35,508 nt of DNA from a virus: the IMG/VR virus record IMGVR_UViG_3300031565_000178, positions 1 to 35,508 of that record; one strand, written 5' to 3'. Made by a program: the position numbers and the translations under genes. The notes under the pieces were generated by a model. That model had not been told where the DNA came from and ran no database searches. It saw only the letters and a program-made list of their open reading frames with translations. Positions 13,552-35,508 of the stretch are shown here, one piece after another (the stretch's first letter is position 1; each line of letters opens with the position of its first letter).

Positions 13552-16500
13552 CAGGGTGCCACCGTGCCCATTTCGAGCATTGAGATTAGAGCCCGCATCT
13601 CAAATAAAGCGTCGCCTGGCGCTTGATGAATATGGATATCCCCAAAACTGTAGGTTGCCCTGCCTTCCCTACCCAGCGGCGTCACCTCGACATGCTCGGG
13701 ACGCCCTCCCTCGCCCACACCTATGAGCGTCGGCCTGCTTATGATCGCGTCCAGGCCATGCTGATACCACCCGATACCCATTGCCGAACCGCCCGATATG
13801 TTGGGTTGTAATTGGCCCATGTTCGCGTTGAATCCCGCCTCGATCCCGTTGGCTATGTTGGCACCCAGCTGATAAGCTGTTTGGTAGAATGGTCCGATAT
13901 TCCAACTTATTTTGGTCATGGCTTCGTTTAGTTTTCTTTGAATAGCGGCAGCAAGATTGGCACCGTCCGATATGCCTTCGGCTATCCGTTGGCCAATGGT
14001 ATATGCGGCATGATGGAAGCGCCCGGCTGCGCCCGCATACTCTTCGCTTTTGAGGACAGCGATAGCCGTTTGGAGCGCGGAAATTACGGCATTGGCCAAA
14101 CCCAACATACCAGTTTCGCCTGCTCCACCTGGATGGGCGGCTTCAGTTTGCCAATCTCTGAAACTCATAATTCCCAACAATGAGTCCACGCCTGCCTGGG
14201 CCGCCGCCGCGACCTCACCAGCTGCAGTTTCGAATGCTTCGGCATTCGCTAGGCCACCCCCCTCGTATAATGAGTATCTAATCTCGCCCAACTGTTGAAG
14301 GAATGAGTATAGATCATGCCTGAAGTCATACATAGCTTCGACGAGACCGGTTTTCTGCGTATAGGCCGCCATGCGCTTCAGCGCACCAAGCGCCGGAGTC
14401 ACCATGTCAGAGATGTCAGTCATGGCTTTGGCGGCCTCGCTCGCTCCCTTTATCGCGTCGGGGCCGAACTTCTCCCATACATCCACCATGATCTGGACCA
14501 GATCGTTCATCCTGATCTCGAATATGCCTGCGGCCTGCTCGAACTTGCCCTTGAGGGGCATGTCCATCAATTCCTTGATGGCCTCGAGTCCGGGGACTAC
14601 TACACTCATCATCTCTTTCACTGCACCGGCGAAGGCCGTGGCGTCTTTGACTCCGGGTCCGGTGTACTGTTCTTCTATCTCGCCCAGCTTCTGCAACAGC
14701 AGGATCAGGCGCTCCTTGAACTTCTCCGCCGTCCGCTCCAGGGTGGTCGCGCCCTTGTACTGAATCATGGTGGTTATGGCTTCTATCCCCGGCACGATGA
14801 TCCCTATCATCTTGTTGACGGACTCGGCCCAGTCGAACGAGACCGGGACGCCCTCGACGACGAAGTGGTCCTTGAGCTTCTTCAGCTCCTCAATTATGGT
14901 GTCAAGATGAATCACCAACCGATGCATCTTAGCTGGGATACTTCCTTCCTCCTCCCATGCAGCTAGGTCGATCAAGGCCTCGATTGCAGGTTTCACTATA
15001 TCAACGATCTTCTGGGCGCTCTCGTAGAATCCAGCCGCCGCGTCTACTCCGTCATAGTCGAAGAATTGCCAGCAGGCTTTCAGTTCATTGACCACAAGGT
15101 CAAGGTCCATCACGAAACTCGCGATTGCATTTGTGAGGCCGCTAGTCCGGGTGTATTCCCCAAGCAGAATCAACGCTTCGATTCCCGGCTTGACAATGGA
15201 TAGGGTGCCCTTCATAGCCTCGGACAAGAGGCTGGCCGCCTGAAGGCCCTCCAGTTCAAAGCAATCTGCGCTCTCCTCAAGCGCGAAGACCACCTGGCCG
15301 ATCAATCGCTGGAAAGCGTCCATCTTGTCCACCAGCGATTCTACGGGTGCCCAATTCGTGAGGGCCTGGATGGCTTCTATTGCCGGTTTGATGATGGCCA
15401 CGCTATCCTTCATGGCATTGAATAGGATGCTGGCTGCCTGAATTCCTTTCAACTTAAAGGAGTCAGCACTTTCCTCCAGGGCAAAGATCACCTGGCCAAT
15501 CAGTTGTTGAAAAGCGCTCATCTTGTCTACTAGCGATTGCGTTGGCTCCCATGCAGTCAGGGCCAAGATAGCCTCTATTGCAGGCTTGATAATAGAGACG
15601 CTGCCCTTCATGGCCTCGAATAAAGTGCTAGCCGCTTGAATACCTTTCAGTTTGAAGCCGTCAGCAGCTTCCTCAAGCGCGAAGACTACCTGACCAATCA
15701 GGCGTTGGAAGGAATCCATCTTGTCTGCTAGAGATTCTACCGGCTCCCATTCAATGAGTGCTACCATGGCCTCGATAGCAGGCTTGACGATGGAGACACT
15801 GCCCTTCATGGCCTCGAATAGGACACCAGCCGCCTGAATACCTTCCAATTTGAAACAGTCAGCACTTTCCTCAAGAGCATTCACAACCTGGCCAATCAAC
15901 CGCTGGAAGGAATCCATCTTGCCTACTAGCGATTCCACCGGTTCCCAATCCGCGAGAGCCACCATAGCCTCGATAGCAGGCTTGACAATCCCAATGATAC
16001 TACTTGCGGCCCCGGCCAGCATGGCCGCCGCCGACTTGCCTTCTTCATCGAGCGTTATGGCGCTGCCCTCCAATGCGCCGACTATGGAATCGACCACGGT
16101 TTTGAATCCCGCTATCCAGCCGGGGAGTCCGCCAAGTTCTGGTGTGACCGCAAGTCCCTCCTGAAGACCCACGAACTGCGCGAAAGCGCCGACTATGGTT
16201 GCCGTGGCCGTGGCCATCGTTGCCGCTACATCGGCGCTGGCCTTGTCTATGCCCTCCATGGCGGTATGCAACATGCCCGCCGCTTTGGTCAGGAATGAAG
16301 CTACCCTGCCTAGACCAACCTCTACGCCAGCGGGTACATCGAACTCGACCAGGTCCTTAATGGCCTGCATCGCGGACTTCGTGGCCTCTTCTATGTCCTT
16401 GGCAACCTCGGCCATGACGCGGGTGGCGGGTTCGGTAGCTTGCTGCGCAGCCCTTTCCCCTGCGGGGCCACTACCAGCCAGAGCACCCAAATCGAGGCCC

Positions 16501-21155: not shown

Positions 21156-22235
21156 TCACTTCCAACAGAGCCACATGGGGTGCGCGCCGTGGTCGGTCAC
21201 GTACCCGAGCCACTGCACCGTGCTGAAATCCCGCGCTAATTCCGCCTGGTACTTCTCGCGCTTCTCCGTGCTCTGTCCAGAGAACCACATCAATCCCCCG
21301 CAAAGCCGGGGAATCCACGAAGCGTAACCCCCGGCATGTCCCACGATTGACAGGCAGAACGCTATGTCGAACGTCCTGATCCCGCTTTTCTCGCGTATCT
21401 GCTTCCATTGGCTGGGAAGTTCCAACTGGTAGAAATCGAGATTCCAATAGCCCAGCCAGTTCGCCAGCAGGTAGTTCCCTTCGCGGTGCTTGTGGTCAAT
21501 GCCGATCACCCTCGCGGCGCCCATGTCGTCGGCCAATCTCATGAAGGCGCCCTGGTTGCAGCCTATGTCCAGGACAGTCGCGCCCACGAAATCCACTTCG
21601 GACATCTTCATCTGCTTGGCCCTGGCCTTGACGTCGCGCTTGCCCCCCACTCCCAACTCCGGGCAGGGCTGGTAGCCGATGCGCTCCTCCCTGGGTTTCT
21701 TGTGATACAATTCGACATGTCGCTTGACCCACACCCTATAGAGGCGCGGGTTGGCGAACCGCAGCCTTCCGAAATCGACGAGTTTGTCGCCGACCCATTT
21801 GCTGTCGCGGGCCAGATAGTGCGCTATATCCTGTTCGCTCTTTTCCAGTTCGTATGCCGTGATGTCCCACGTCCCGGCCATGCGGGCGGCCCCCTTCTTG
21901 TCGGGCGTCCCCTCTCCCGTGACATAGTCCGTCACCTGGGCCAGTCTCTCGCCGTTGAGGAGAACCAGTCCATACACTCTAGGCGCGAGTCCGGCGAGCG
22001 CGAACAGATTCTGTATCTTGGTCGCCTCGATCAGTCGGTTGCCGGCCCACTTGAACTGCTCCGGCTCCAGCAATTCGTCCTCGGTCATCTTGCGGAATAT
22101 CTTCAGGCAGAGATTGGGCCGTGCGTACCTGGTTTGCAAAGCGCTTGCCAGGCTCTCGTTGTGCGCGATGTAGCAGTTCTGGCCTTCGTGGACTTTGCCC
22201 AACATGCCGCCGAAAAGTCGCAGTTCTTTAATCAC
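21156..22235 (-). CDS. kinase-like domain fused to SAM-dependent methyltransferase (short paralogue)
   Basis: Two parts. Residues 20-160 resemble a reduced protein-kinase-like fold: LCLKIF (K45), AGLAPRVYGLVLL, a YLARDSKW stretch and KLVDFGR (D154, a DFG-like motif). Residues about 215-345 are a class I methyltransferase with motif I VLDIGCNQGA (221-230) and an acidic RVIGIDHKH strand. It is homologous along its whole length to the first ~370 residues of the 23672-26050 protein (shared CYIAHN, LCLKIF, GLAPRVY, VTDY). GTG 22235 overlaps the upstream gene by 8 nt. Substrate unknown; a sugar or glycan in this context. Confidence 0.75.
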   Translation of the reverse strand: MIKELRLFGGMLGKVHEGQNCYIAHNESLASALQTRYARPNLCLKIFRKMTEDELLEPEQFKWAGNRLIEATKIQNLFALAGLAPRVYGLVLLNGERLAQVTDYVTGEGTPDKKGAARMAGTWDITAYELEKSEQDIAHYLARDSKWVGDKLVDFGRLRFANPRLYRVWVKRHVELYHKKPREERIGYQPCPELGVGGKRDVKARAKQMKMSEVDFVGATVLDIGCNQGAFMRLADDMGAARVIGIDHKHREGNYLLANWLGYWNLDFYQLELPSQWKQIREKSGIRTFDIAFCLSIVGHAGGYASWIPRLCGGLMWFSGQSTEKREKYQAELARDFSTVQWLGYVTDHGAHPMWLCWK

Positions 22236-22443
22236 GAACCGTCATCCTCACTGTCCCGCTGGACACTTCCCTCTCGAATAGACACCACCACACGGGCGGG
22301 TTGTCGGCATAGTTGATCTCGTGCCCGATCATCCTCCACCCCTCGCGCCCCAATGCGTTGATGCGGTTTATCACCATATCGCAATTGCTCCTATGGTCAC
22401 TCAGCCTCTCCTCCTGGAATATCTCCGTCCTGTATTGCCACAT
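22228..22443 (-). CDS. small DUF4177-like protein
   Basis: The ATG at 22443 is preferred because AGGGG lies 8 nt upstream; GTG 22452 is the alternative. The 71-residue protein begins MWQYRTEIFQEE, then INALGREGWRMIGHEI and WWCLFER. That strand-helix-strand arrangement with LN-x-LG-x-x-GW-x-x-x is the DUF4177 style, small proteins of unknown function. It overlaps both neighbouring genes (47 and 8 nt). Confidence 0.62.
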   Translation of the reverse strand: MWQYRTEIFQEERLSDHRSNCDMVINRINALGREGWRMIGHEINYADNPPVWWCLFEREVSSGTVRMTVRD

Positions 22444-23332
22444 CTCTGTCACCCCTAAAATGCCTCTCGAAGACTCGTTTGTGGTTATCGCAGAACGCCC
22501 GGATCGTCATGTCCTTGGTGATGGCCCGTAATTCCCGTTTATCATGTGTGCCCAGTTCGGTGATGCAGTGCAGTATGGTTCCACACATTTCGTCGAAGTC
22601 GCCACGTGGATACCGATAGATTCCATGTGTGTCCGGTAGTTCATCCATGATCCCCACACCAGACGGTATGACCACGGGAATCCCGCAACTCAATGCCTCT
22701 AATGGTCCACCGGGACCCGCGTCCACTAGGCTAGTACAGAGGAGGAGATCAAGCCTATGATAGAACTGACTTGGCAAGTCTTCCCATCTGTACCACTTGC
22801 TCTCAATTGGCCAGCCCTGGCCCGACGCCTTGATTCTGAAATGGCCGGTTGCGGCATATTTGTTGAGCTGGTACACTAAGAGTTCGCCCTTGCGCCCTCC
22901 AAGATTGACGAATCCATTGATGCCAACAACCGGCAACGTTTCTGGGTCATACTTCCTCGGACTCAGCGTGAAATGACTTACCTCAACACAATGCTGCACC
23001 AGTTCAGTCGGGCCATGCTGAACCAAATCATCATAGTACATTGGCGCGTTGCATATCCTGAGATCGTGGTGTTCTCTCGCTTCATCCCACCAGCTGCGCT
23101 TCGCCCCATATGGCTCCTTGTGTGTAAAGAAAGCCGCCGTGTCAGTCAAATCCCACGGTCCCCAATGCTTCCAGCCGTTCGTGAACGGCAAGAAATAGTT
23201 CACATCCGCTTGCGGATCAGGTTCCCGCCCCACGGTCCATCCCAAATTCTCATGCAAATACCGCGCGTGGCGGGGCAAGATACGCTCCGGCCCCTTTTTT
23301 CCGTATGCGGTGCAGATCACGTGGACGTTCAC
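22397..23332 (-). CDS. GT-B (GT4-like) glycosyltransferase, paralogue A
   Basis: GTG at 23332 overlaps the acetyltransferase stop as GTGA and matches the starts of the paralogues (V-x-V-x-x-x-x-A). The ~311-residue protein has GT4-type C-terminal motifs: GINGFVNLGGRKGELLV (about 137-153), FYHRLDLLLCTSLVD, then GGPLEALSCGIPVVIPSGVG. The usual E-x7-E is D204-x7-E212 here, a conservative change of the first catalytic-region acid. It would transfer a sugar from a nucleotide donor to an unknown acceptor. It closely resembles the proteins at 28772-29659 and 29656-30519, so the three arose by duplication. Confidence 0.82.
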   Translation of the reverse strand: MNVHVICTAYGKKGPERILPRHARYLHENLGWTVGREPDPQADVNYFLPFTNGWKHWGPWDLTDTAAFFTHKEPYGAKRSWWDEAREHHDLRICNAPMYYDDLVQHGPTELVQHCVEVSHFTLSPRKYDPETLPVVGINGFVNLGGRKGELLVYQLNKYAATGHFRIKASGQGWPIESKWYRWEDLPSQFYHRLDLLLCTSLVDAGPGGPLEALSCGIPVVIPSGVGIMDELPDTHGIYRYPRGDFDEMCGTILHCITELGTHDKRELRAITKDMTIRAFCDNHKRVFERHFRGDRDVAIQDGDIPGGEAE

Positions 23333-23814
23333 AGGAATTTCGCCAGGCTCACCATATCGCGGCTCTCGCCGTCCCAACGCTCTTCCTCCACGTATCGACC
23401 CTCTTCGGTGAAGCCATATGTATCCTTATAGATATGCAACATGGGCGCGTTGTCGCCATACACGCTCGCGTTCGTTTTGTGCAAACCAAGCACCTTCGCC
23501 TCCTCTAGTAGTTTGGCCACGATCTTCGTCCCGTAGCCCTGACCGCGATAGTCCGGCCCGACGCAGACCCCGAATCGGCACACATGACGTTTCCTGTCGG
23601 ACTCGTAGAGTTCAATGTGACCGTAGGCGGCGGCCCGCCCATAGTCCGTCCAGAGCCAACTGCGTAGCCATTTATCCAGGGCAATCTGCGGACCCGTCCG
23701 ATTCTCGAAGTACGTGAATTGGCGGTTGCCCTTCATCTCCGTTATCAGGCTTTGCAGAATCTTCGCCATGTACTCCGTTACCGGGGCGACGCTCATTCCC
23801 GATTGGTGTTTCAT
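23329..23814 (-). CDS. GNAT-family acetyltransferase
   Basis: The acetyl-CoA-binding motif is intact: VCVGPDYRGQGYGTKIVAKL (R-G-Q-G-Y-G at about residues 90-95), followed by the helical arm and NAPMLHIYKDTYGFTEEGRY, typical of GNAT motif B. It would acetylate an amine or, in this context, an amino sugar or other cluster product. The start is unclear: ATG 23814 (AAAGGGGGAAG in front) overlaps the methyltransferase by 143 nt. ATG 23769 and ATG 23733 are possible shorter starts with poor SD. Confidence 0.8.
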   Translation of the reverse strand: MKHQSGMSVAPVTEYMAKILQSLITEMKGNRQFTYFENRTGPQIALDKWLRSWLWTDYGRAAAYGHIELYESDRKRHVCRFGVCVGPDYRGQGYGTKIVAKLLEEAKVLGLHKTNASVYGDNAPMLHIYKDTYGFTEEGRYVEEERWDGESRDMVSLAKFL

Positions 23815-26050
23815 CTTCCCCCTTTGGTTTGCGAAACGCTATGGTCAGATGTTCCCTACTGATGAACTCCCACTTGGCTTTCGCCTGCCACTTGTCTACT
23901 TCCTGCCTCACTACTATGCGCGGACGCTTCTTGGGATTATGGCCATAGTCGTGAAAGACAATGATGCCGCCGTTGGCCATCCTGCGTGTGTACGCTGCTA
24001 TGTCCTTCGGGATTCCGCTTTTCTTGTGGTCGGCGTCAATGAACACGAAGGCGAAATCGCCATCCATCTCCAGCGGCGCGAGCCACGAATTGCCCTTGAT
24101 GAAGATAACATCCTTATCGTAACCTGCCGTCTTCAGGTTCTCCCTCATGAGTGGGCGGTCTATCGTGTCCACGGCGTAGCATTCGCCCTTGTCGAGTCTG
24201 GCGGGAAGCCATGCTATTAGACTGGCACCGTTTAGCACTCCCGCCTCGATTGCTGGCCCCAGTGGTGCCTGCATCGCGCAGTCATAGAGGAACCGAAGTT
24301 CGTTGGCCCTCAAACTCCCCGTTCCCTTGATCGACAAGCCCATCTCTACAGCCTTTTCCCTAGGCGTATCTTCCGGCCTCTGAAACGCTATGGCACTGTT
24401 GACCTTTCCCAGGGGAATCCACTGTGCCTTTTTCTGCCAGGCGTCCACGTACTCTATGACCACCCCCTTGGGGTCTTTCCTTTCATAGTCATGAAAGACG
24501 ATGATGCCTCCGGGCTTGATACGCTTTGTGAATGCCTCGATATCTTTAGGTATTCCATTCCTGGTGTGGTCCGCATCGATGAAAGCAAAGGCCAGCAATT
24601 CCTCTGTTACATATGGTGCCTCCCAGCTGACGCCCCTGATGGCCTTCGCATCGTAGTCATAGTGTTCGATGTTGGCGCGCAGATCGGGTTGGTTCTTGAT
24701 GTCTACGGCATAGCATTTGCCCCTACCCTCACGGGCCGCCGCCCAGCACACAAAGCTAGCCCCACACATGGCCCCCGCCTCTACCGCCATGCCGTCCGGT
24801 GCCTTTTCCGCCAAGTCATACAGGAATCCCATGGTTTCGGGATAGAGATTCACGCGCCCCTGTGCCGTGCGTCCCCGCTCTATGGCCGCTGTCCTGCGCG
24901 CTTCGCCCGATTCTGGCAACGGTTCCGCCGGGGGCCTAGGCGTCTTCCAACATCGGACCAGGACCTTCTTCCTGGCTTCGTCACGAAGGAATCCTAGCGT
25001 CTCAACACGCTGGAAGTCCTGTCGTAAAGCCTTCAGCTTTGAATCAGAGAAGTCTTCCAGCCATATCACCTCATCGCAGAGATCGGCAATCCATTTCTGG
25101 TAGCCACCCTTCACGTGGGGCAGTATGACCAACCCGAACACAACGTCGAAGGACTCAATTCCAGACAGCTTGGCAATTTGATGCTTTTGCTGTGGGAGTT
25201 CTAGTTCCAGGAAATCGAAGTTCCAGAATCCGAGCCAGTTGTTGATGTCATGCCACAGGCTGCAATGCTTGAAGTCTACACCCACGACCCGCTTCGCGCC
25301 GCGCCTGTACGCTTCGCGCATGTAACTACCGGTGTTGCACCCGAGGTCCAGAACGGTCTTGCCCCGGAAATCGATCTCGTCCAGCCGCATGTGATTCAAG
25401 CGATATACGCGGTTGCGCTGCCCAGGTACATTGAGTTCCGGAACAGCCTGGTAACTGACCAGGCTATCTTTGGGACCCCGCCGCCGGTGCATCAGTCTCT
25501 TTCCAAGCCGCTTTTCGTGGCTCTTGGGATCGGTGAAGTGGAACCGCCCCCAGTCCACAAACCATTTGCCGACCCACTTGAAATCGTAATCGAAGTAATC
25601 CTGGGCCTTGGCCAGTTTATCCTCGTATCCAGCAAGTCCGATCTCATACTTCTTGGCAATCCTCTTGGCCTTATCCAGGTCCGGCTTGCCATCTCCCACT
25701 GCATAATCGGTGACTTCCGCCAAGCGATCTCCCTCGCCCTGGTCATGTAGAAGAACCACCGCATAGACCCTTGGGGCGAGTCCCCGGATGGCGAAGTGAT
25801 TCTGCACCCTCACCGTTTCCGTCAGCAGCGTCCGGCCCCACTTAAAGCCTTCGGGATGGGCCTTCTGTCTTGCGGCCAACGGATGGAATATCTTGAGGCA
25901 CAGTCCGTCACGCCCGAACTCCTCTTTGAGCACTTCCGTCAGTTCGGGATTGTGGGCGATGTAGCAGTCCTTGCCGAAGTTCTTGTGTCCGGGTCTTGTT
26001 GGCTCCTGCTGTATCAAATCCGCCTCTACGCTCAATTCCTTATACTTCAT
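23672..26050 (-). CDS. kinase-like domain plus three tandem methyltransferase domains (792 aa)
   Basis: The ATG at 26050 is chosen because GAGGAG lies 6 nt upstream and the N-terminus then aligns with the paralogue at 21156-22235; GTG 26119 is an alternative. Domains: kinase-like (about 25-180: LCLKIF K53, FVDWG D166); class I methyltransferase with VLDLGCNTGS (233-242); then two TylF-type methyltransferases repeated at about 178 residues. These have AVEAGAMCGAS (422-432) with FIDADH (490-495), and AIEAGVLNGAS (600-610) with FIDADH (670-675), each followed by IPKDI and GGIIVFHDY. TylF-type enzymes O-methylate sugar hydroxyls with a divalent metal. The last ~50 residues overlap the acetyltransferase gene and look unnatural. 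Confidence 0.85.
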   Translation of the reverse strand: MKYKELSVEADLIQQEPTRPGHKNFGKDCYIAHNPELTEVLKEEFGRDGLCLKIFHPLAARQKAHPEGFKWGRTLLTETVRVQNHFAIRGLAPRVYAVVLLHDQGEGDRLAEVTDYAVGDGKPDLDKAKRIAKKYEIGLAGYEDKLAKAQDYFDYDFKWVGKWFVDWGRFHFTDPKSHEKRLGKRLMHRRRGPKDSLVSYQAVPELNVPGQRNRVYRLNHMRLDEIDFRGKTVLDLGCNTGSYMREAYRRGAKRVVGVDFKHCSLWHDINNWLGFWNFDFLELELPQQKHQIAKLSGIESFDVVFGLVILPHVKGGYQKWIADLCDEVIWLEDFSDSKLKALRQDFQRVETLGFLRDEARKKVLVRCWKTPRPPAEPLPESGEARRTAAIERGRTAQGRVNLYPETMGFLYDLAEKAPDGMAVEAGAMCGASFVCWAAAREGRGKCYAVDIKNQPDLRANIEHYDYDAKAIRGVSWEAPYVTEELLAFAFIDADHTRNGIPKDIEAFTKRIKPGGIIVFHDYERKDPKGVVIEYVDAWQKKAQWIPLGKVNSAIAFQRPEDTPREKAVEMGLSIKGTGSLRANELRFLYDCAMQAPLGPAIEAGVLNGASLIAWLPARLDKGECYAVDTIDRPLMRENLKTAGYDKDVIFIKGNSWLAPLEMDGDFAFVFIDADHKKSGIPKDIAAYTRRMANGGIIVFHDYGHNPKKRPRIVVRQEVDKWQAKAKWEFISREHLTIAFRKPKGEDETPIGNERRPGNGVHGEDSAKPDNGDEGQPPIHVLRESDGSADCPG

Positions 26051-26134
26051 TTGTTTCTCCTCGATGGACTGGACGTGTTGCAATTCTCCCAGAAATACCA
26101 CGCGATTCTTGGTCTTCACGTCAGGAATCCTTCC

Positions 26135-26341
26135 CTATTCATGGCAGCTGACAAGTAATTCCGGTTTTTCATCTGGATAGAATAATCCCATCTCAATGGC
26201 CTTTTCCCACGACACGGTTCCGGCTGGTTTCCCCGTCTTCTCATGTCCTAAATGCACCAGCCATTGATCCCCCTGATAGATGTAGATCGTGATATACTTG
26301 CCGTCTTTTGATTCACGCGATAGTGGATGTTCTCGCGTCAT
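26135..26341 (-). CDS. small hypothetical protein (68 aa)
   Basis: The ATG at 26341 overlaps the upstream fusion gene as ATGA. A compact beta-rich sequence (KYITIYIYQGDQWLVHLGHE) is followed by EKAIEMGLFYPDE. The AIEMGL stretch resembles VEMGLS in the linker between the tandem methyltransferase domains next door, which may hint at a shared donor module. No family is recognised. Confidence 0.65.
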   Translation of the reverse strand: MTREHPLSRESKDGKYITIYIYQGDQWLVHLGHEKTGKPAGTVSWEKAIEMGLFYPDEKPELLVSCHE

Positions 26342-27420
26342 GTCAGCAGTCCCTCCTTCGACAATCGCTTGGCCATTAGCGCCGCGCAGCCCAGGGCGTT
26401 GAGCTTGTCCCCGTCGATCACCGTGTCGTATTCGCCCTTTTGGGGCGGATCAAAGATAGGTGTCTTCTCTTCGCCTTCCTTGTGCTTCAGGTACACGCGG
26501 TAGGGATCACCCAATATCTCCATGATGCGGTCGCGCCGCTTCTGCGGCGAGGCTATCATGCTCACCACTACCCGATGACCCTGGTTTGCCAATGCCTTTG
26601 CAGTCAGCGCGACCTCTATGGCGAAATCCCTGTGTGTCGATTCCCTACGTTCGTCCTTGAACCAGTCGACCCCGAACTCCGCCGTCTTCTCCAAATTGAG
26701 TTTGGCGTAGGTGTACTGCCAGACGCCAAACCAGAAGTCGTGATCGTCAACCACGACAATGCTGGGGAATAGCGTCTGCAGATACCGACACATGGTGCTC
26801 TTGCCCGCGTTCGACCTGCCGTTGATCCAGATTATGCGTCTCGGTTCTACGACCCTGGCCCCCTCAACCATCGCTTCCTCCCATTGCTTGAAACTGCATA
26901 TCTTGCGCAGGCTCGCGGCGATCGCCACCTGGGTACTGTCCGTCCAGTTTATCTCGATTATCTGCCATTTGAACGGCGTGTAGTAGTCGCACTCCCGCCC
27001 GCGCCTGGTGGCCGGATCGAAGAAATGGAACACCTTGGGGTGCCAGCCGCGCGTGATGTGGGTCGGGTCGGTATAGGCCCGCGCCGCCTTGTAATATGGC
27101 ACCTTGAGATGGACTTTGCCGCCCGGTCGGAGAATCCGCCATATCTCGTCCATGCTCTCCAGGAGCGTTAGGTGCAAATGTTCTAGCACGGCCCAGGCGT
27201 TCACCCGCGAGAACGTGTTAGACGGCCACGGCCAGGGTCTTTGATTCAAGTCCCAGGCCACGTCTATCTCGGGGCGGTGCTTGTCCAGGCTGTGGTTAAT
27301 CCACAACGGGAATACCCGGTTCCCCGCCCCCAGGTTCAGACGTTTGGTGTGCGCCGGGGGCCTGACATCCCACGGGTCGAGGCCCAGACGTTCCCAGAGG
27401 CTCTTCTTGTCCTCGGTCAC
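26338..27420 (-). CDS. methyltransferase fused to APS-kinase-like P-loop kinase
   Basis: Residues about 25-150 are a class I methyltransferase: RLNLGAGN (27-34), DVAWDLNQRPWPW, AWAVLEHL and IWRILRPGGKVHLKVPYY. Residues about 195-350 are a P-loop kinase: IIWINGRSNAGKST (Walker A, G201-T209), VVVDDHDFW, RDFAIEVALTAKALANQGHRV, and IDGDKLNALGCAAL. Helix order resembles adenylylsulfate (APS) kinase, but some D/R contacts of the classical enzyme are not visible. The kinase may phosphorylate a sugar or nucleotide rather than APS. GTG 27420 overlaps the upstream TAG by one nt. Such a fusion is unfamiliar to me. Confidence 0.82.
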   Translation of the reverse strand: MTEDKKSLWERLGLDPWDVRPPAHTKRLNLGAGNRVFPLWINHSLDKHRPEIDVAWDLNQRPWPWPSNTFSRVNAWAVLEHLHLTLLESMDEIWRILRPGGKVHLKVPYYKAARAYTDPTHITRGWHPKVFHFFDPATRRGRECDYYTPFKWQIIEINWTDSTQVAIAASLRKICSFKQWEEAMVEGARVVEPRRIIWINGRSNAGKSTMCRYLQTLFPSIVVVDDHDFWFGVWQYTYAKLNLEKTAEFGVDWFKDERRESTHRDFAIEVALTAKALANQGHRVVVSMIASPQKRRDRIMEILGDPYRVYLKHKEGEEKTPIFDPPQKGEYDTVIDGDKLNALGCAALMAKRLSKEGLLT

Positions 27421-27956
27421 TATAGATTCTCTCTCGGATACCCGTGAGGCGAATCATGCCCATGGCAGCCGATGTAGAAGTCCAGGGTCGCGAGATTCGT
27501 GGCGTTCCATCCCTGCGCCCACACCTTGTATTGCCGCGCCGGAACGTTGCCTATCCTGATCTGGATGGGCGCCCCGGCGGTCGCGTGCGGATTATCTACT
27601 GAGGCAATCACCATGATCTCGCTCCATCTATGCCCGTACACGGCCTCCTTCAGCGACTGGTATCCGAATATGAATCTCGGCATCCATGCCGTCGTGGTGC
27701 TCTGCTCCGCGACCATCACCCGGTGTAGATGATAGGTGCTCGTTCCCTTTGGCCCCGGATCGTCACGAGACCCTATGACCTGAATGACCGGGCCCCAGGC
27801 GTTGTTTCCGCTGACCACCCGGAAGGGATTGGTGACACCCTTGACTATGGCGTTCTTTTCGGTCGGCACCGCCGCCGACCCCCACCAGCGCTCGCGCGTT
27901 TCCAGTTCCCCCAAAACCTCCAGGACGTCATCCCGTATCTCAGTTAATATGTCCAT
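27420..27956 (-). CDS. hypothetical protein, possibly virion-associated (178 aa)
   Basis: ATG at 27956 with AAGGA 7 nt away. A helical N-terminus (ILTEIRDDVLEVLGELETRE) leads into a beta-rich domain with NPFRVVSGNNAWGPVIQVIG, APIQIRIGNVPARQYKVWAQ and a C-terminal LATLDFYIGCHGHD. The look is of a phage structural or fibre-anchoring protein rather than an enzyme. It is the only clearly non-enzymatic medium-sized gene within the sugar block, so it might be the glycan acceptor or a decoration protein; that is speculation. Confidence 0.6.
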   Translation of the reverse strand: MDILTEIRDDVLEVLGELETRERWWGSAAVPTEKNAIVKGVTNPFRVVSGNNAWGPVIQVIGSRDDPGPKGTSTYHLHRVMVAEQSTTTAWMPRFIFGYQSLKEAVYGHRWSEIMVIASVDNPHATAGAPIQIRIGNVPARQYKVWAQGWNATNLATLDFYIGCHGHDSPHGYPRENL

Positions 27957-27959
27957 GTC

Positions 27960-28775
27960 TCATTCCTTCTCCCGGAACTGCGCGCTCATCTCTCGCCACA
28001 GTTTCCGCCCCTGGTGCTTGACTACCCACGCCCTCGCGGCGGTGGCGAAGTGGTATATCCCCACGCTTCTTTTGTAGTCCCGTTTGTGAACGAAGGTGTT
28101 CCATTCGGTGCCGAACGTCCACATCCTCACCGGACATTTCCAAAGCGCCCGCATCATCGCCTGCTGGTCAGTATGCTTGAATCGCCGCCATTCCGTGTGA
28201 AAGGTTTTCAGAAGCGTTTCGGTTGCCTCGCATCGCCGCCAGGCCCACACCCCGCCTGCTATCTGGAGCCACCTGTCGCCGCCCAGGGCCTTGTTGGTGA
28301 ACAGGTTCTCAGCCTCGTATTTCCTCCTCTGCGCATGGTGCACCAGCGCCGCGTCGGGCGGACTCAGTGTCACCACCATCTCCCAGCCATCGCTGAGTAT
28401 GTTGAAGAAGGCGTCGAGTTTCGTCTTGACAAGCATGTCCACGTCCATGTAGAGCACGAGTTCCCACTCCGCGGGCGCAAGACTCCATATCTTCGTCTTC
28501 TGGTAGCGCGCCCTCCTGTCCCTCATGGCCGACGGGATGACTATGTCATCTGCCAGCAACCGCTTCTTGAATCCCTCTGGCACCGGCGTCGGCGACCACC
28601 TGGGCAGCGGATCCGCCGGCTTGCGGTAGTCCTTCTCGAATCCCTCACACACCAGGCATATCGGGATGCCGGGAGAATACTTGTGGATCGACGCTATCAG
28701 GTGGTATGCGCAGTCGTGCGCGTGCCTGCCGTAGGCGACGAGATAGATTCCTGCCTTTCCTGTCCAGTCGGTCAC
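27960..28775 (-). CDS. GT-A-like glycosyltransferase with DVD motif, long form
   Basis: GTG at 28775 overlaps the upstream GT stop as GTGA. The 271-residue protein starts GIYLVAYGRHAHDCAYHLIA, has LVLYMDVDMLV with a D111-x-D113 metal-binding motif, then LQIAGGVWAWRRCEATETLL and TDQQAMMRALWKCPVRMW. It ends with GIYHFATAARAW. This order (DxD, acceptor loop, D-Q, late His) is that of GT8-like retaining enzymes. It is related to the shorter proteins at 30839-31450 and 31573-32214. Donor and acceptor unknown. Confidence 0.8.
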   Translation of the reverse strand: MTDWTGKAGIYLVAYGRHAHDCAYHLIASIHKYSPGIPICLVCEGFEKDYRKPADPLPRWSPTPVPEGFKKRLLADDIVIPSAMRDRRARYQKTKIWSLAPAEWELVLYMDVDMLVKTKLDAFFNILSDGWEMVVTLSPPDAALVHHAQRRKYEAENLFTNKALGGDRWLQIAGGVWAWRRCEATETLLKTFHTEWRRFKHTDQQAMMRALWKCPVRMWTFGTEWNTFVHKRDYKRSVGIYHFATAARAWVVKHQGRKLWREMSAQFREKE

Positions 28776-29659
28776 GCCATGCCCCCAATGAGATTGTGCA
28801 GCGCATCATTCCATCCTCGCCACCAGCGTTCCGGTGTATATCCTTCGACGATTGCCCTCAGACTGGTCATTTGACTAGCAATCTGGGTCTTGTTTTCAAT
28901 CGCTGTCTGCAAGGCTTTCACCATTTCGTCATAGTCGCCCCTCTTGTAGTGATAAATGCCGGGCATGTTTGGCAATTCATCAAGAGCGCCTACCCCCCAA
29001 GGAATGACTACCGGCCTGCCAGAAGCTAATGCCTCCAGAACTGTCACCGGCCCGCCCTCGATCAGACTGGTGCAAAGGAAAACATCTAACCGGTGATAGA
29101 ATCTGGGCAACTCAGGCCATTCGTACCATTTCGTTGGAACGGGCCAGCCCTTGCCCGACCCGATGATCTTCCATCGGTCACCGTATTCTTTGGCCAATCG
29201 CGCCACAAGCATCTCGCCCTTGCGACCGCCTGGATAGATTCTGCCCGAAAGGCCAATGACGGGCTTCTTGTGCTTCTCGAAAGGCCAGAATGTGAAATGA
29301 TCCAGTTCTACCGGATGCGGGATATGCGCCGTCGATCCGCACAGCCTGAGTTCCCTGGCGTACATCGCGCTCGGCGTCACCCGCAAGTCTAAACCCCGAC
29401 TTGCCGCTTCCCAGCGCCTGCGCTTCGCGCCATGCTCTGTTGGCCAGATTTCCTTGTGTGTGAACCATCCCGCCGTCGGCGTGCGATTCCATTTCGAGAA
29501 CCGCCACTGGTCGTAGGGCATGAACACGTTCACAAGTGCCCGCGGATTCGGCTTCGTGGCAATACGCCAGCCGTTGCCATCTTCCAGGTGACGGGCCAGC
29601 CGCGCTATGATGGCGCTGCTGTCCTTGGCATAGTTTGGGGTGACGATGCAGACTTTCAT
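28772..29659 (-). CDS. GT-B (GT4-like) glycosyltransferase, paralogue B
   Basis: I start at ATG 29659, which overlaps the upstream stop as ATGA and gives MKVCIVTPNYAKD, matching the paralogue starts; the frame extends to 29686 only as a shadow. 295 residues. Motifs: VIGLSGRIYPGGRKGEMLV (134-152), then the E201-x7-E209 of SLIEGGPVTVLEALASGRPV. The protein retains the full GT4 catalytic signature. A DELP segment and an aromatic tail follow. Donor sugar unknown. Confidence 0.85.
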   Translation of the reverse strand: MKVCIVTPNYAKDSSAIIARLARHLEDGNGWRIATKPNPRALVNVFMPYDQWRFSKWNRTPTAGWFTHKEIWPTEHGAKRRRWEAASRGLDLRVTPSAMYARELRLCGSTAHIPHPVELDHFTFWPFEKHKKPVIGLSGRIYPGGRKGEMLVARLAKEYGDRWKIIGSGKGWPVPTKWYEWPELPRFYHRLDVFLCTSLIEGGPVTVLEALASGRPVVIPWGVGALDELPNMPGIYHYKRGDYDEMVKALQTAIENKTQIASQMTSLRAIVEGYTPERWWRGWNDALHNLIGGMA

Positions 29660-30519
29660 GGTATCTGCCCCAGCGCTTCCTTCCATTCCCTGGCGTAGCG
29701 TTCCGGAGTCCTATCCACGACATATCCACGCAGTTGTTCCAGCGGGGTCTTGTCCTTCACCGCCCGCTCCAAGGCTGTCACCATCTGTCCATAATCCCCC
29801 GCCTCGTAGCGGTAAATTCCATCATCGTCGGGCAGTTCGTCAATGAATCCCACGCCATTAGGCACGACTATCGGTCTACCACAAGCCAACGCCTCTAGGA
29901 CGGTGACGGGTCCCCCCTCGATGAGGGAGGTGCATAGGAACACGTTGAGCATCCGGTAGTAGTCCGGCATTTCCTTCCAGCGATAATGTTTTGTCCTGAT
30001 GGGCCAGTCCTTTGCGGTCTGTATCTTGCCGGAACCGACGAACTTCCATTCCTTGCTGTGATCTTGCGCCAGTTGCCGGACCAGATGTTCGCCCTTCCTG
30101 CCGCCCCGATACACGTCGCCGCTGACTCCTATCACGGGTTTTTCGTGTTGAACTTTCCCTTTTGGTCGAAATCTGTCCAGTTCGACCGGTGGCGTCACGT
30201 TCACGGTCACGCCATGTTTCCTGAGCATCCTGGCGTACTGCTTCGCCATGGTCACGCGCAGATCCGTGTTTGCGGCGAGATGATTCCAGTGCTTGCGTTT
30301 GTACTTGTCGTTCGTGTCGTAGTGCGTGAAGAAGGCCGCGGTTTTGCCCCCCGTCCATTTCGAGAATCGCCATTTCAGGTAGGGAAAGAATATGTTAACG
30401 TGCGCACGCGGGTCCGGCCTCGTGCCGATTCCCCAACCGTTGTACTTCGCCAGATGGCAGGCCAGACGCGCCAGTATCCAGCTAGTCTTGTACTCGAAGA
30501 CGACGAGATGGACTTTCAC
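29656..30519 (-). CDS. GT-B (GT4-like) glycosyltransferase, paralogue C
   Basis: GTG at 30519 overlaps the upstream stop as GTGA. The 287-residue protein has an N-terminal MKVHLVVFEYKTSWILARLA and a middle VIGVSGDVYRGGRKGEHLV (129-147). Its signature SLIEGGPVTVLEALACGRPI (E201-x7-E209) matches the next gene almost exactly. The tandem arrangement with 28772-29659 suggests recent duplication and possible specialisation for different donors or acceptors. Confidence 0.85.
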   Translation of the reverse strand: MKVHLVVFEYKTSWILARLACHLAKYNGWGIGTRPDPRAHVNIFFPYLKWRFSKWTGGKTAAFFTHYDTNDKYKRKHWNHLAANTDLRVTMAKQYARMLRKHGVTVNVTPPVELDRFRPKGKVQHEKPVIGVSGDVYRGGRKGEHLVRQLAQDHSKEWKFVGSGKIQTAKDWPIRTKHYRWKEMPDYYRMLNVFLCTSLIEGGPVTVLEALACGRPIVVPNGVGFIDELPDDDGIYRYEAGDYGQMVTALERAVKDKTPLEQLRGYVVDRTPERYAREWKEALGQIP

Positions 30520-30839
30520 TTGACGCGTTCCCCATCATATGGGGGCAAGCCCAAGTATCCCTTGCAGCAATCCTTACAGATTTGACCGGATGGCAAAGAC
30601 AAGGCTATCTGACCGAACGTATCGTGAATTATAGCGAAACCGTTGCCGCATAGTCCCGTCCACGTTCTGCCCTTGTAGTGAATTGAGGCGAATGTGCCGT
30701 CGTGATCATCCCATGAATAGTTATGAATGCCTATCTGGGGCTCATCGTCTATCTCGGCTTCCGGCACGCCCAGATGTCGCAACAGTGCCCGTTTGCCAGC
30801 CAAGTTATCGAACAGGAATGTGTGCGTGCGTGTATCCAT
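30516..30839 (-). CDS. small Cys-containing hypothetical protein (107 aa)
   Basis: The ATG at 30839 is preceded by AAAGGAGGAGATA and overlaps the upstream stop; the longer frame to 30986 is a shadow of the glycosyltransferase. N-terminal helix (LFDNLAGKRALLRHLGVPEAE), a central beta stretch (YSWDDHDGTFASIHYKGRTW) and a C-terminal SGQICKDCCKGYLGLPPYDG. The C-x2-CC could bind metal. Family unknown. Confidence 0.65.
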   Translation of the reverse strand: MDTRTHTFLFDNLAGKRALLRHLGVPEAEIDDEPQIGIHNYSWDDHDGTFASIHYKGRTWTGLCGNGFAIIHDTFGQIALSLPSGQICKDCCKGYLGLPPYDGERVK

Positions 30840-31450
30840 TATCTCCTCCTTTGTTTCGCCTTCCCGAACCGGTGTTTTATGATCGGCCCGCCGTTGAACT
30901 CCCGGCTCAACAACCACATTCTCACCGGACATTGCACCAAGGCCCTTATGAGTGCCCCTTGATCCTGGCCCTGCCAGCGATTCCATTCCTTGCGCCAGAC
31001 CTCGAAGAGTTTCTGTGTTCGTTCATTCCTGCGAAACCAGAACACTCCTCCGCCGACGGTGCAGACCTTAGCTCCCTCCGCCGCGTTCATCGTCTCCACC
31101 CGCTCTTCCGCGCTGCAAAAAGACAACCAGTCCGCGTTCTGCATCTTGCTCAGTATGATGATCAGGTCCCACCCGTCAGTGAGTATGTCAAACCCCAACG
31201 AGATGTCGCCGTTTATGCGCGTGTCCGCGTCCAGGTACAGGGTCGGCTCGAAGGGCGACAGTTTGTCAAGGTGAACCTTGGCCCAGCGGCCAGGTTCGCC
31301 CTTGTCCCTGAAGCGGATCGGTTCTATGTCCAGGACCTTCTCGCCAATCACCGCGACCGGCCAGTCGTGATGCTGCCTCAGAGACTTGATGGATTCGGCG
31401 GCCTCTTTCCGCGCAGGTTCTCCATAGGCGATGTAGACGACGCCCTTCAC
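30839..31450 (-). CDS. GT-A-like glycosyltransferase with DAD motif, short form
   Basis: GTG 31450 overlaps the stop of a small upstream ORF as GTGA. 203 residues: VVYIAYGEPARKEAAESIKS, RWAKVHLDKLSPFEPTLYLDADT with D74-A-D76, then TVGGGVFWFRRNERTQKLFE and GQDQGALIRALVQCPVRMWL. It lacks the final ~60 residues of the 271-residue relative (27960-28775), where a late His lies, and ends in a basic KAKQRRR tail. Metal-dependent sugar transfer is likely if the shorter form is complete. Confidence 0.78.
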   Translation of the reverse strand: MKGVVYIAYGEPARKEAAESIKSLRQHHDWPVAVIGEKVLDIEPIRFRDKGEPGRWAKVHLDKLSPFEPTLYLDADTRINGDISLGFDILTDGWDLIIILSKMQNADWLSFCSAEERVETMNAAEGAKVCTVGGGVFWFRRNERTQKLFEVWRKEWNRWQGQDQGALIRALVQCPVRMWLLSREFNGGPIIKHRFGKAKQRRR

Positions 31451-31563
31451 AACCCAAGCGGCCTCCCAATATAGTTGCGAAGTAGCGTGCTGATGATGCT
31501 ACTGAGTACAACGTAAGCCAACCAACTATACCATGGACCTCGCAAGCCAAGAATACTAATCAC
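31447..31563 (-). CDS. 38-residue single-pass membrane peptide between glycosyltransferase genes
   Basis: GTG at 31563 lies 4 nt after AGGAGG, and TGA at 31449-31447 overlaps the next gene's GTG, so start and stop are coupled to both neighbours. The peptide has a hydrophobic core (SWLAYVVLSSIISTLL) and a short basic end (RNYIGRPLGL). It may tether the glycosyltransferases to the membrane or be a passenger. The SD spacing is short, which lowers confidence. Confidence 0.5.
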   Translation of the reverse strand: MISILGLRGPWYSWLAYVVLSSIISTLLRNYIGRPLGL

Positions 31564-31572
31564 CCTTCCTCC

Positions 31573-32214
31573 TTATCGGCTCGCGATCCAGGCCGCGGGC
31601 AGTGCCAGAATGTAGGGCTTGGTCACGTAGACGGCCTCCATGAAGGCCAGCCTCTCGTCCCTTCCGGCCTTGACGCGCTTGTGCCACTCGTCCAGTAGTG
31701 CCTGTACCCGCTCGTTCCGTTTCGCCCAGAACATCCGCGTTCGGAAATACGGAATCCGCAGGTCGTGGATCAGCTCCTCGGCTTCCTTCTTCTGATCGCT
31801 CAACGGCAAGTCCCTCAGCAGCTTGTCGTAGCTCCTCACCGGCGCGAGCACGTCCCAGCCGCTCGTCTTGAGCAGCCGGAAGGTCGGCACGATGAATTGC
31901 CTATTCGGTTTGATCGCCGGGTCCCATATCATACAATGGGCAAACGGCAGGTTCCACAACTTCCCCGTCACCATCTTCAGTTCCGCCGCCTGCACCCACG
32001 CGGGCGGGCCGGGGATCTTCCGCCTCAGCAGGATTCCCGCGTCGTCGGGTATGTCCTGGCTCTGTATGCTCGCGTCTATCGCGAAACCATCCTTGATGAG
32101 CTGCGCGGCCAATTTCTTGTTTTTGATGGTCAGCACGTCGCCGGGATAGAACAACTTCTGACGCCCGGTCTCGTCCGGAAACCTGTGGTGCCGAATCAGC
32201 TGAAGAAAGGGCAT
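31573..32214 (-). CDS. phage-type N-terminal domain fused to a degenerate GT-A-like domain
   Basis: ATG at 32214 after GGAGGAAC. Residues 1-45 (LFYPGDVLTIKNKKLAAQLI) look like the small beta/helix domain often encoded after phage capsid genes (basic, G-D, then A-x-x-LI-x-x-G). Residues about 80-200 align by eye with the GT-A proteins nearby: TSGWDVLAP, FRTRMFWAKRNERVQALLDEW and RDERLAFMEAV. The metal motif is D98-P-A instead of D-x-D. The lost second Asp suggests a non-catalytic or altered transferase; it may target the glycan machinery to the head. Confidence 0.7.
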   Translation of the reverse strand: MPFLQLIRHHRFPDETGRQKLFYPGDVLTIKNKKLAAQLIKDGFAIDASIQSQDIPDDAGILLRRKIPGPPAWVQAAELKMVTGKLWNLPFAHCMIWDPAIKPNRQFIVPTFRLLKTSGWDVLAPVRSYDKLLRDLPLSDQKKEAEELIHDLRIPYFRTRMFWAKRNERVQALLDEWHKRVKAGRDERLAFMEAVYVTKPYILALPAAWIASR

Positions 32215-32752: not shown

Positions 32753-34105
32753 CTATGAAGTCGCCGCTTCTACATCGAGAACCACGAACGGCGAAACCTC
32801 GGTAACACCGTCCTTCAGGAACACGGGCGCACGCAACTTTTCCTGACCATCAACCCGGATCACGAACTTGTACGCAACCCGGTTCTGGCGGAAGACATGC
32901 TCGGCATCGCGGCTAGCCGCAACGGTGAAGTCCTGCCGGTTGCCGACGTAGTAATACTTCCAGTCGGCCAGTATCACATCGCCACGCAATCCCAGGGTTC
33001 TGGTCTTCTCGGTGAACGTCCATGGCAAACCAAGGATGGTCTGCGGCTCGCCGCCAACGGCGTCCGTGGCCCAGATGTAGTGCCCTGCGGGATCCTGCAG
33101 CGTCCGCAGCGTCTCATAGCACGAAATGTGGAAGACCCACATGCCGCGCGTCCAGGACCTCGGAAGGAAATGCCCCTTCATGCGCACAAGGTCCAGATAT
33201 GTGATCGTCCCCGCCGTCTGCCGCGCCTGCACAAAGGTGCCGGGTGCCATGATGACGCCCTGTGGCTGACCCACCGCCGTTCCATCCAGAAAGGCCTCGT
33301 CCCGATAGAATGTCACGGCCTCCCGGAATAACCCCCGAAGCAGCGTATCCAGGCTTATGGGCGAATCGGCCAGAAGGGCCTCTTTCACTTCGGTGTAGCC
33401 TGACGCCTCATGCGCAACCAATTCGATCTGCGTGAAGGCGGGTTCGGTCTCGCCCTTTTGCGTGCCGGTTTCCACCCAGTGCATGACAACGCCGCCGAAG
33501 AAGTTGGAACGTCCTGGCGTCGAGCCGGTCGTGTCCAGACCGGGTACGGGAAGTGTCCGCGTGGTCATGGGAATGACGTCGGCCCTGGGCATCACGATCT
33601 CGTCTTCGGGATCGATGCGGATGAAATCATTGCTGATTCCAGGTGGAACCGTGAAGCCACCGGCAGCGCCGGTCTGGTCGCCCAGAACCTTGACCTCGTC
33701 CTTCGCCTCGTACTGGTACTCTACCCACTGCGAGCCCATGTTCTTTAGGGTGTTCCGGTCGTTGTTTGCGACAGCGACCCAGAATGCACCCCGATCCCGC
33801 GGACTCCAGACCTTGACTGGCACGGAGTCGCTCGTCCTGGTCGTGAATCCGCCCAACGGTTCAGTCCTGGCCTTTTCCATGCCCTGTATGGCCTTAACAA
33901 CCGCTTGCGCCGTCGCGTCCGCACTCTGATTGGCCAGAAGAACCAACGTCTCGGCATTCATCTGGATAGGCTGTTGCCCCACGATCCAAGTCTTCACCTT
34001 GCCCTCATCAGGATCAACGTGTCGGGCCTCTCCGGTCTTCTGTCCATCCTCATCCACCTCATAGGCCGCGAATTGGCCTGCGAGGGGAAATACTTCCATT
34101 TTCAT
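32753..34105 (-). CDS. putative internally initiated major capsid protein (450 aa)
   Basis: Inside the fusion ORF an ATG at 34105 (Met301, MKMEVFPLAGQ) has AGGAG 8 nt upstream, ideal spacing for initiation. Starting here gives the HK97-fold domain with an N-terminal scaffold/delta-like region (about 100 residues ending near ...MEKARTEPLGG), without the protease. This would let the phage make many capsid subunits but few protease molecules from one gene. No transcriptional start is needed. The alternative is cleavage of the linker by the protease. Confidence 0.55.
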   Translation of the reverse strand: MKMEVFPLAGQFAAYEVDEDGQKTGEARHVDPDEGKVKTWIVGQQPIQMNAETLVLLANQSADATAQAVVKAIQGMEKARTEPLGGFTTRTSDSVPVKVWSPRDRGAFWVAVANNDRNTLKNMGSQWVEYQYEAKDEVKVLGDQTGAAGGFTVPPGISNDFIRIDPEDEIVMPRADVIPMTTRTLPVPGLDTTGSTPGRSNFFGGVVMHWVETGTQKGETEPAFTQIELVAHEASGYTEVKEALLADSPISLDTLLRGLFREAVTFYRDEAFLDGTAVGQPQGVIMAPGTFVQARQTAGTITYLDLVRMKGHFLPRSWTRGMWVFHISCYETLRTLQDPAGHYIWATDAVGGEPQTILGLPWTFTEKTRTLGLRGDVILADWKYYYVGNRQDFTVAASRDAEHVFRQNRVAYKFVIRVDGQEKLRAPVFLKDGVTEVSPFVVLDVEAATS

Positions 34106-35005
34106 CTCTCTGTCTCCTGTCTTGTCTCTCTTTCGTTTCGGTTTGGCCTTGACTATCTCTTTGCTCGCGCCCGCCGTGGACGCCCCCGCGTCCACCTTTG
34201 GCAGCAGCGCCTTGAGCGCCGGTCCCGCCTCGGCCTTGTATGTCTTCAGGGCCACGATTCGATTCCGTGGCTCCGCTGGCATCGGTGTCATGCTGGCCTC
34301 GATGATGGGCCAGCGGATTATCTCGCCCTCCTCCGTCACCTTCCTCAAGTGTGATGCTGTTGCGCTCGACCAGCCCAGTTTGCCCGCTGTGGCCAGGTCA
34401 TAGATCATCTTTTCGTAGTCATCGGCCATATTCAGGACGGTCTCGGCGAACTTGCCATAGTCCGTTTCCTTCACGGAGATAGGCCGGAAAAGATGGTCGG
34501 CTTCCTTCTCGTAACCCTCGGCAACCACAAGGCCGTGATGGAACATGCAGTCCGCCCCGTCGCCCCCGCGCGCGCCCAGGTATGTGCGTGGGCTGAACCA
34601 TTCCTTCTCCAGGTCCCGGTGGTCAATATCGCCATATTGGATCAGTGAGCCGCCCACACGCCCATTGCCCAACGCCTTGAGAGGCCCCCCGAAGGCGACC
34701 AGGGATTCCTCTGTCAACTCGCCAATCTCGTCTTCCGGTGGCTCGCTAGGTGTTTCCGGCGCCGTTTCCACGGCCTTCTCCTCAATCACTGGCTCTTCTA
34801 ACGATTTCTCCGGCTCCTTGAGCACCCACTTACCATCCTCTACTTTGTAGAGTTTCTTGAATTGACTTATTGCAACGGCCCACGGGTTCTCGGCGCCCGT
34901 TATCGCGTCCGCCCACTCGGCGATCTTGTTCGCCTGGCCCAACGTCACGGGCGGATCAATTCCCCTTATCGCCGGATTCACGTCTTCCATGCTCGCGTAT
35001 GGCAT
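32753..35005 (-). CDS. prohead protease-major capsid protein fusion (750 aa)
   Basis: A single ORF. Residues 1-60: a domain like those before phage proteases (ANKIAEWADAIT ... NPWAVAISQFKKLYK). Residues about 118-255: prohead (S78-like) protease, with MFHHG (H156/H157) and GWSSATASHLRKV (S213/S214), then IIRWPIIEASMTPMPAEPR. Residues about 258-302: basic linker (KAKPKRKRDK). Residues about 303-750: HK97-fold capsid protein (GGFTVPP, VIMAPGT, ADWKYYYVGNR, YKFVIRVDGQ). The protease matures the capsid by cleaving its delta domain. Fusion of the two activities occurs in some phages; the internal start at 34105 would also give free capsid protein. Confidence 0.9.
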   Translation of the reverse strand: MPYASMEDVNPAIRGIDPPVTLGQANKIAEWADAITGAENPWAVAISQFKKLYKVEDGKWVLKEPEKSLEEPVIEEKAVETAPETPSEPPEDEIGELTEESLVAFGGPLKALGNGRVGGSLIQYGDIDHRDLEKEWFSPRTYLGARGGDGADCMFHHGLVVAEGYEKEADHLFRPISVKETDYGKFAETVLNMADDYEKMIYDLATAGKLGWSSATASHLRKVTEEGEIIRWPIIEASMTPMPAEPRNRIVALKTYKAEAGPALKALLPKVDAGASTAGASKEIVKAKPKRKRDKTGDREMKMEVFPLAGQFAAYEVDEDGQKTGEARHVDPDEGKVKTWIVGQQPIQMNAETLVLLANQSADATAQAVVKAIQGMEKARTEPLGGFTTRTSDSVPVKVWSPRDRGAFWVAVANNDRNTLKNMGSQWVEYQYEAKDEVKVLGDQTGAAGGFTVPPGISNDFIRIDPEDEIVMPRADVIPMTTRTLPVPGLDTTGSTPGRSNFFGGVVMHWVETGTQKGETEPAFTQIELVAHEASGYTEVKEALLADSPISLDTLLRGLFREAVTFYRDEAFLDGTAVGQPQGVIMAPGTFVQARQTAGTITYLDLVRMKGHFLPRSWTRGMWVFHISCYETLRTLQDPAGHYIWATDAVGGEPQTILGLPWTFTEKTRTLGLRGDVILADWKYYYVGNRQDFTVAASRDAEHVFRQNRVAYKFVIRVDGQEKLRAPVFLKDGVTEVSPFVVLDVEAATS
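34114..34118 (-). promoter_or_regulatory. internal Shine-Dalgarno AGGAG for capsid-only translation
   Basis: AGGAG on the minus strand at 34118-34114, spaced 8 nt from ATG 34105, lies inside the basic linker codons of the protease-capsid fusion (K-T-G-D-R-E). A well-placed SD and ATG exactly at the domain boundary is unlikely by chance alone. Confidence 0.55.
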
Positions 35006-35008
35006 ATG

Positions 35009-35224
35009 TCACCCCTCTATCTCAATCGATCCCTCGTTGATCAACTGGTCGCGGAACCACAGCAGTTCCTCCGGTGTGTATACCGTGCCCAGATACCGCT
35101 TGAGGAAACGGATCAATCCGCTCTGTTCCATCCCGGTTCTTTTGAGGTTCTGCGTGAGCACAGCACGTACCCTGTTCAATTCTCTATTCTGCCAAGCCGT
35201 CTCGGTCAATCTGATTATGGGCAT
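35009..35224 (-). CDS. hypothetical protein (71 aa) upstream of the capsid gene
   Basis: AGGAG lies 7 nt before ATG 35224. The protein is helical and basic (NRELNRVRAVLTQNLKRTGM ... GLIRFLKRYLGTVYTPEELL). The stop is 3 nt before the capsid ATG, and the GAGGGGTGA at its end provides that gene's SD. No family recognised. Position suggests a head-assembly accessory or an internal protein. Confidence 0.65.
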   Translation of the reverse strand: MPIIRLTETAWQNRELNRVRAVLTQNLKRTGMEQSGLIRFLKRYLGTVYTPEELLWFRDQLINEGSIEIEG

Positions 35225-35232
35225 GAATGCTC

Positions 35233-35508
35233 CTAGTTCACGGAAATCTGATAGATTTGAGCGGCGGTGACATCACAACCCCACAAGCACCGGCCATCCC
35301 AGGTCAGCCCAGTAGGTCCTGTCCCGGGAGAGGCGAACTGCGTGACAACCCTTCCTGTCCATGGATCGATCTTATAGATTTGGTCGACCGGAGTGCCATC
35401 AGAGTTCCACAGGAAGGCTCCGTCCCAGGCGAGGCCATATGGAGTAGCTGCCGGACTCGCGAATTGCCGTTTCACTATGCCTGTCCATGGATCGATCTTA
35501 TAGATTTG
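35233..35508 (-). CDS. beta-propeller (NHL/YVTN-like) repeat protein, 5' end beyond the window
   Basis: The frame is open to 35508, so the GTG at 35475 is not a convincing start. Two repeats are visible: QIYKIDPWTG-x-V, then QFASP, then a P-x-GL-x-WDG-x-x-LW motif. Each repeat is about 45-50 residues and is typical of a propeller blade. The protein ends AAQIYQISVN at TAG 35233. Such domains often bind carbohydrates or proteins and are seen in tail, fibre or head-decoration proteins. Located at the start of the capsid segment, it may be a virion surface protein. Confidence 0.75.
   Translation of the reverse strand, partial: QIYKIDPWTGIVKRQFASPAATPYGLAWDGAFLWNSDGTPVDQIYKIDPWTGRVVTQFASPGTGPTGLTWDGRCLWGCDVTAAQIYQISVN

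Follow-up and report, generated by a model that had tools for sequence, protein, structure and literature searches.

Results

The window analysed here, by which we mean the whole 35,508-nucleotide stretch of the viral record IMGVR_UViG_3300031565_000178, carries on its minus strand one uninterrupted open reading frame of 750 amino acids (35005-32753), in which a predicted prohead protease is followed by an HK97-fold capsid protein. An earlier note on this DNA had placed the two proteins in a single frame, and the intact frame, the capsid profile matches and a fold match for the protease uphold that assignment. The ATG of the fusion lies at 35003-35005 and is preceded at 35010-35017 by the Shine-Dalgarno (SD) sequence GAGGGGTG (duplex energy -10.2 kcal/mol), both on the minus strand. 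The same record encodes a RecT-like gene, a distal tail gene (12634-13551) and a tape measure gene (13551-19058). Between the capsid and tail genes, the minus-strand region 21156-32214 holds glycosyltransferase-like frames (27960-28775, 28772-29686, 29656-30519 and 30839-31450, and a weaker candidate at 22397-23377) together with methyltransferase-like frames (21156-22235, 23672-26119 and 26338-27420), an unusual location for such genes. Just upstream of the fusion gene, and separated from it by one 71-amino-acid frame, a minus-strand frame (35233-35508) leaves the contig end; it contains tandem repeats such as QIYKIDPWTGRVVTQFASPGTGPTGLTWDG, is beta-propeller-like and matches DUF6923 weakly.

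The AlphaFold2 model of the full-length protein resolves the fusion into successive parts, all encoded on the minus strand. Residues 1-62 (34820-35005) fold into a separate module ahead of the protease and are followed by a disordered stretch; among relatives, the length of such N-terminal extensions varies from next to nothing to more than 300 amino acids. The protease domain spans residues 107-252 (34250-34687) and leads into a basic, disordered linker rich in charged residues (253-300; 34106-34249), in which pLDDT is mostly under 50. Beyond the linker come strands (302-330) and helices (351-381) that form the N-terminal part of the predicted free capsid protein (33863-34102) and probably represent a delta or scaffolding region, a role that we assign by inference, and then the HK97-fold capsid domain (403-745; 32771-33799). 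The latter is identified by the model and by two profiles, PF05065 (Phage_capsid; residues 449-721, E 1.9e-41) and TIGR01554 (residues 431-721, E 6.5e-57). The protein does not match NF045541 (scaf_prot_MCP2; threshold >525 bits), which by its name and length (634 positions) is a family of scaffold/protease-capsid fusions.

The protease half gave no protease match in Pfam, PHROGs or NCBIfam, and Peptidase_S78 (PF04586) did not match it even at E 10, so that fold and conservation were used for its identification instead; one homologue, P0001, matches TIGR01543 weakly (6.2e-4). An AlphaFold2 model of the protease built from an alignment of 88 homologues reached a pLDDT of 88.8, and its best match among solved structures, by a wide margin, was the T4 capsid assembly protease gp21 (5jbl; VIA-align Z 9.9 over 132 residues, 3.2 A), followed by herpesvirus assembly proteases at Z 4-6. 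The candidate catalytic residues His157 and Ser213 are invariant across the 88 homologues. Fold and catalytic pair, as judged from model and alignment, thus confirm the N-terminal half as a prohead protease of the assemblin fold (T4 gp21 and herpesvirus assemblin) with predicted activity. The only isolate phages found with the same protease were those of 184 Salinibacter phage records, where it is annotated as hypothetical, and we found no cultured phage with fused genes of this protease family. In the one record examined, Salinibacter phage 2_12, the capsid protein is encoded by a separate gene that is not fused to the protease. The protease of this phage forms the C-terminal end of an 839-amino-acid protein (L005, 2321-4840) with an unrelated N-terminal part.

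At the end of the linker, AGGAG (34118-34114) is followed after 8 nt by an in-frame ATG (34105-34103), which is codon 301 and the predicted start of a free capsid protein of 450 amino acids; a further in-frame ATG follows at 34099-34097. The earlier note had located this SD-ATG pair at the domain boundary behind a basic linker, and the model agrees, as it places Met301 directly ahead of the strand that opens the next folded part at residue 302. Within this gene the site is unremarkable given its purine-rich linker (p 0.31 in codon-order shuffles, p 0.23 in synonymous shuffles). Because the motif of a single gene was not significant, relatives were collected, and the case for the site is a comparative one.

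Scans of viral contigs with a single protein, either the whole protein or its capsid half, gave no matches, and relatives were gathered by scanning with alignments of the protease domain, which found the protease in more than 440 viral contigs or loci. Of the 159 loci that we examined, protease and capsid share one frame in 109 and form separate genes in 38; the remaining 12 are truncated or gave no capsid match. Removal of near copies left 69 non-redundant fusions, which share ancestry, so that counts over them are not independent. The linkers of 65 of these 69 contain an AGGA, GGAG or GAGG core spaced as an SD from an in-frame ATG, where 6.1 are expected from capsid-domain windows of equal length scored by the identical rule; the linkers without such a core are those of L044, L094, L096 and L055. 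Whether relatives keep the internal SD was one of the checks that the earlier note had named for its proposal of a fusion protein and a free capsid protein from one gene, and the proposal came through it. It is this conservation that places the internal signal of the studied gene above chance. For 47 of the 69 fusions, the gene's strongest in-frame ATG-SD combination is one within the linker (9.0 expected by length), strong in-frame sites are about four times denser there than in either domain, and out-of-frame combinations are rare in the linker (0.17 versus 1.23 per 100 codons). Codon-order shuffles of the linkers gave a combined p of 7e-22, to be read with the shared ancestry of the fusions in mind, while synonymous shuffles gave a modest per-gene signal (median p 0.21 versus 0.31 for the capsid-domain control) on which we do not rely. 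The SD is read in differing codon phases (48, 16 and 2 cases), encoding X-Glu-X or Gly-Gly, and the amino acids encoded at it vary among relatives (EEV, QGD, KEN, GGV), which suggests that the signal lies in the nucleotide sequence and not in a peptide motif.

Comparison of fused and split relatives places the internal Met where a separate capsid gene begins. Residue 1 of the capsid protein of the split locus L051 aligns one-to-one with the internal Met of two fusions, L101 (71% identity over 295 amino acids) and L075 (49% identity). The nearest fused relatives of the studied gene, L097 and L098, carry GGAGG-ATG at the corresponding position (MKMEVFPLAGQF / MLKVFESGGQFH / MSKLVMFPIGGKF), and when the capsid part of L098 is aligned with the studied one, the match starts one residue past the internal Met. 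On the protease tree the fused or split state changes at least 4 times by force of the topology and 15 times by parsimony, and the well-supported clade of five that includes the studied gene has three fused and two split members. These changes of state imply that the genes have repeatedly been joined and separated while the capsid start persisted.

Predicted RNA structure is low at the junction sites. Across the 69 fusions the opening energy there is 7.0 kcal/mol, versus 14.6 kcal/mol downstream (lower at the junction in 66 of 69) and 12.9 kcal/mol elsewhere in the linker; the difference remains significant after correction for GC content, and part of it reflects the lower GC at the sites. In the studied gene the upstream SD is stronger than the internal one (-10.2 versus -7.4 kcal/mol, with scoring that assumes a standard anti-SD for the host), and the upstream start is more structured (opening energy 8.6 versus 1.2). 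Judged by SD strength alone, the internal start has no advantage over the upstream one across 27 genes (p 0.16); once RNA opening is added, the internal start is the better one in 20 of 27 (p 0.08). We therefore claim no ratio of products.

Fusion of a protease with a capsid protein is as such already known. Published cases are those of Arthrobacter phages of groups AM, AU and AN and of Rhodococcus phage RRH1 (PMC5513430) and gene gp5 of MD8-like Pseudomonas phages (PMC8508860), as well as ORF003 of Pseudomonas phage PAJU2, whose database entry reads 'prohead protease fused capsid protein'. The studied gene belongs with the fusion genes of the PAJU2 and Circum type in having both domains in one uninterrupted frame. 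PAJU2 and MD8 likewise derive protease and HK97-fold capsid from one gene, and PAJU2 shares the AGGAGG-ATG at the junction; they differ in being described as a polyprotein or a three-in-one gene, and the MD8 protease is ClpP-like whereas the studied one resembles assemblin and T4 gp21. Searches with Circum gp12 and Maggie gp7, representing the Arthrobacter fusions, return their own families and not the studied one.

We examined 19 fusion genes of isolate phages for a start site at the junction. The region judged in each was broad and had no matched control, and these genes serve as supporting evidence only. PAJU2 has a strong AGGAGG-ATG (CCAGGAGGGCAACGACATG, dG -10.8), and a clear SD-ATG is also present in Nightmare, GMA5, Schiebs, Circum, Salk, Bing and a faecal phage. 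Maggie, Penoan, Atraxa, Adaia and RRH1 have weaker sites, and most of the Arthrobacter-type and RRH1 fusions tested have a junction SD-ATG. Such a site is thus present in several fusion families unrelated to the studied one; Lactococcus phage 1706 and Microbacterium phage PensacolaC28 have no good site among the 19. Some Circum-type fusions (within the set L166, L174, L175, L177, L178, L180 and L188) carry two successive in-frame SD-ATG candidates, preceding MPDL.. and M-x-RNVFDQ, which might reflect either nested initiation at both or conservation of the residues themselves. The paper on the Arthrobacter and Rhodococcus fusions (PMC5513430) does not mention internal initiation, nor does the MD8 paper (PMC8508860) mention an internal start, and we found no report of internal initiation in protease-capsid fusions in the open-access papers searched.

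Discussion

The locus holds a protease-capsid fusion gene with an internal start signal at its domain junction, and that signal is conserved among the fusions related to it. We consider it likely, with good confidence, that this gene, joining an assemblin-fold protease to an HK97-type capsid protein, contains a nested, in-frame capsid cistron. Ribosomes starting at 35005 would make a protein consisting of protease, linker, delta region and capsid domain, while those starting at the internal AGGAG-ATG (34105) would make the delta region and capsid domain alone. As both products would have the delta and capsid parts in common, the fusion could co-assemble into the prohead and bring its protease along, at a dose lowered by the free capsid subunits. 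Cleavage of the delta region and the linker by the protease would follow once the particle is assembled. The N-terminus of the mature capsid protein is probably proteolytic whether the gene has one start or two, since maturation of the HK97 type removes the delta region.

Nested in-frame genes are familiar from capsid assembly. In lambda C/Nu3 and herpesvirus UL26/UL26.5, a long protease-scaffold product is accompanied by a short C-terminal product from a nested in-frame start, which is translational in lambda and arises from a separate transcript in herpesvirus. The studied gene shares this nested design, including a conserved in-frame SD and start at the domain junction. It differs in its predicted short product: those systems make the scaffold as their short product and encode the capsid protein in another gene, whereas here the short product would be the capsid protein itself, holding the whole capsid domain together with its own delta region. 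The gene is therefore better regarded as a variant of the lambda C/Nu3 and UL26/UL26.5 type than as a member. HK97 gp4/gp5 offers a similar pairing, in which the protease is encoded beside a capsid protein whose N-terminal delta scaffolding region it cuts off, but from two separate genes.

Alternatively, translation might begin only at the upstream start, placing a protease on every subunit, with self-cleavage freeing the capsid protein and the internal ATG-SD being a fossil of a once-separate capsid gene. A capsid polyprotein that undergoes autocatalytic cleavage has been put forward for PAJU2, as cited in PMC8306868. The interchange of fused and split states on the protease tree would lead one to expect fossil starts in young fusions, and the two isolate fusions without a good internal site fit this explanation as well. 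A fossil SD should decay, however, yet all but four of the 69 divergent fusions retain one, in more than one codon phase and alongside low RNA structure, and we regard a single start as unlikely. Less probable by some distance is that the junction matters at the protein level, as a self-cleavage site or a flexible acidic/basic linker, with the SD-like sequence a by-product of Glu, Lys and Gly codons and a conserved Met. The linker is indeed disordered and highly charged, purine-rich codons commonly resemble an SD, and the studied site on its own is not unusual; but the residues encoded at the SD vary between relatives, a cleavage site requires no Met, and the corresponding Met is the start of the gene in split L051. 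That the fusion arose from an assembly or sequencing error removing a stop codon between two normal genes can be rejected with near certainty, for although this is a metagenomic viral contig of which no identical second copy was found, independent homologues with the identical fused frame make up 109 of the 159 loci. They stem from many metagenomes, two of them lie on Anaerolineae genome contigs, and their linkers are long open in-frame stretches.

With the nested capsid cistron as the preferred reading, the conserved second start signal suggests, from sequence comparison, a widespread and unreported way of making much capsid protein and little protease from one gene. Whether the design extends to phage protease-capsid fusions in general is a more finely balanced matter, on which we lean slightly towards the affirmative: nested internal initiation may have been acquired convergently, with tailed phages keeping the capsid start whenever protease and capsid genes become fused. 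A single gene would then fix the proportion of protease-bearing and plain subunits, and genes described as encoding a 'capsid polyprotein' would be two-product genes. This could be tested in phages already in culture, such as PAJU2 or the Arthrobacter and Gordonia phages. An old question of capsid assembly is how a few dozen proteases come to be packed among hundreds of capsid subunits. If the nested-cistron reading is true, fused genes would set the number of proteases in each prohead through the relative strength of their two starts, and several hundred phage genes now labelled as fusion proteins or polyproteins would need new annotation.
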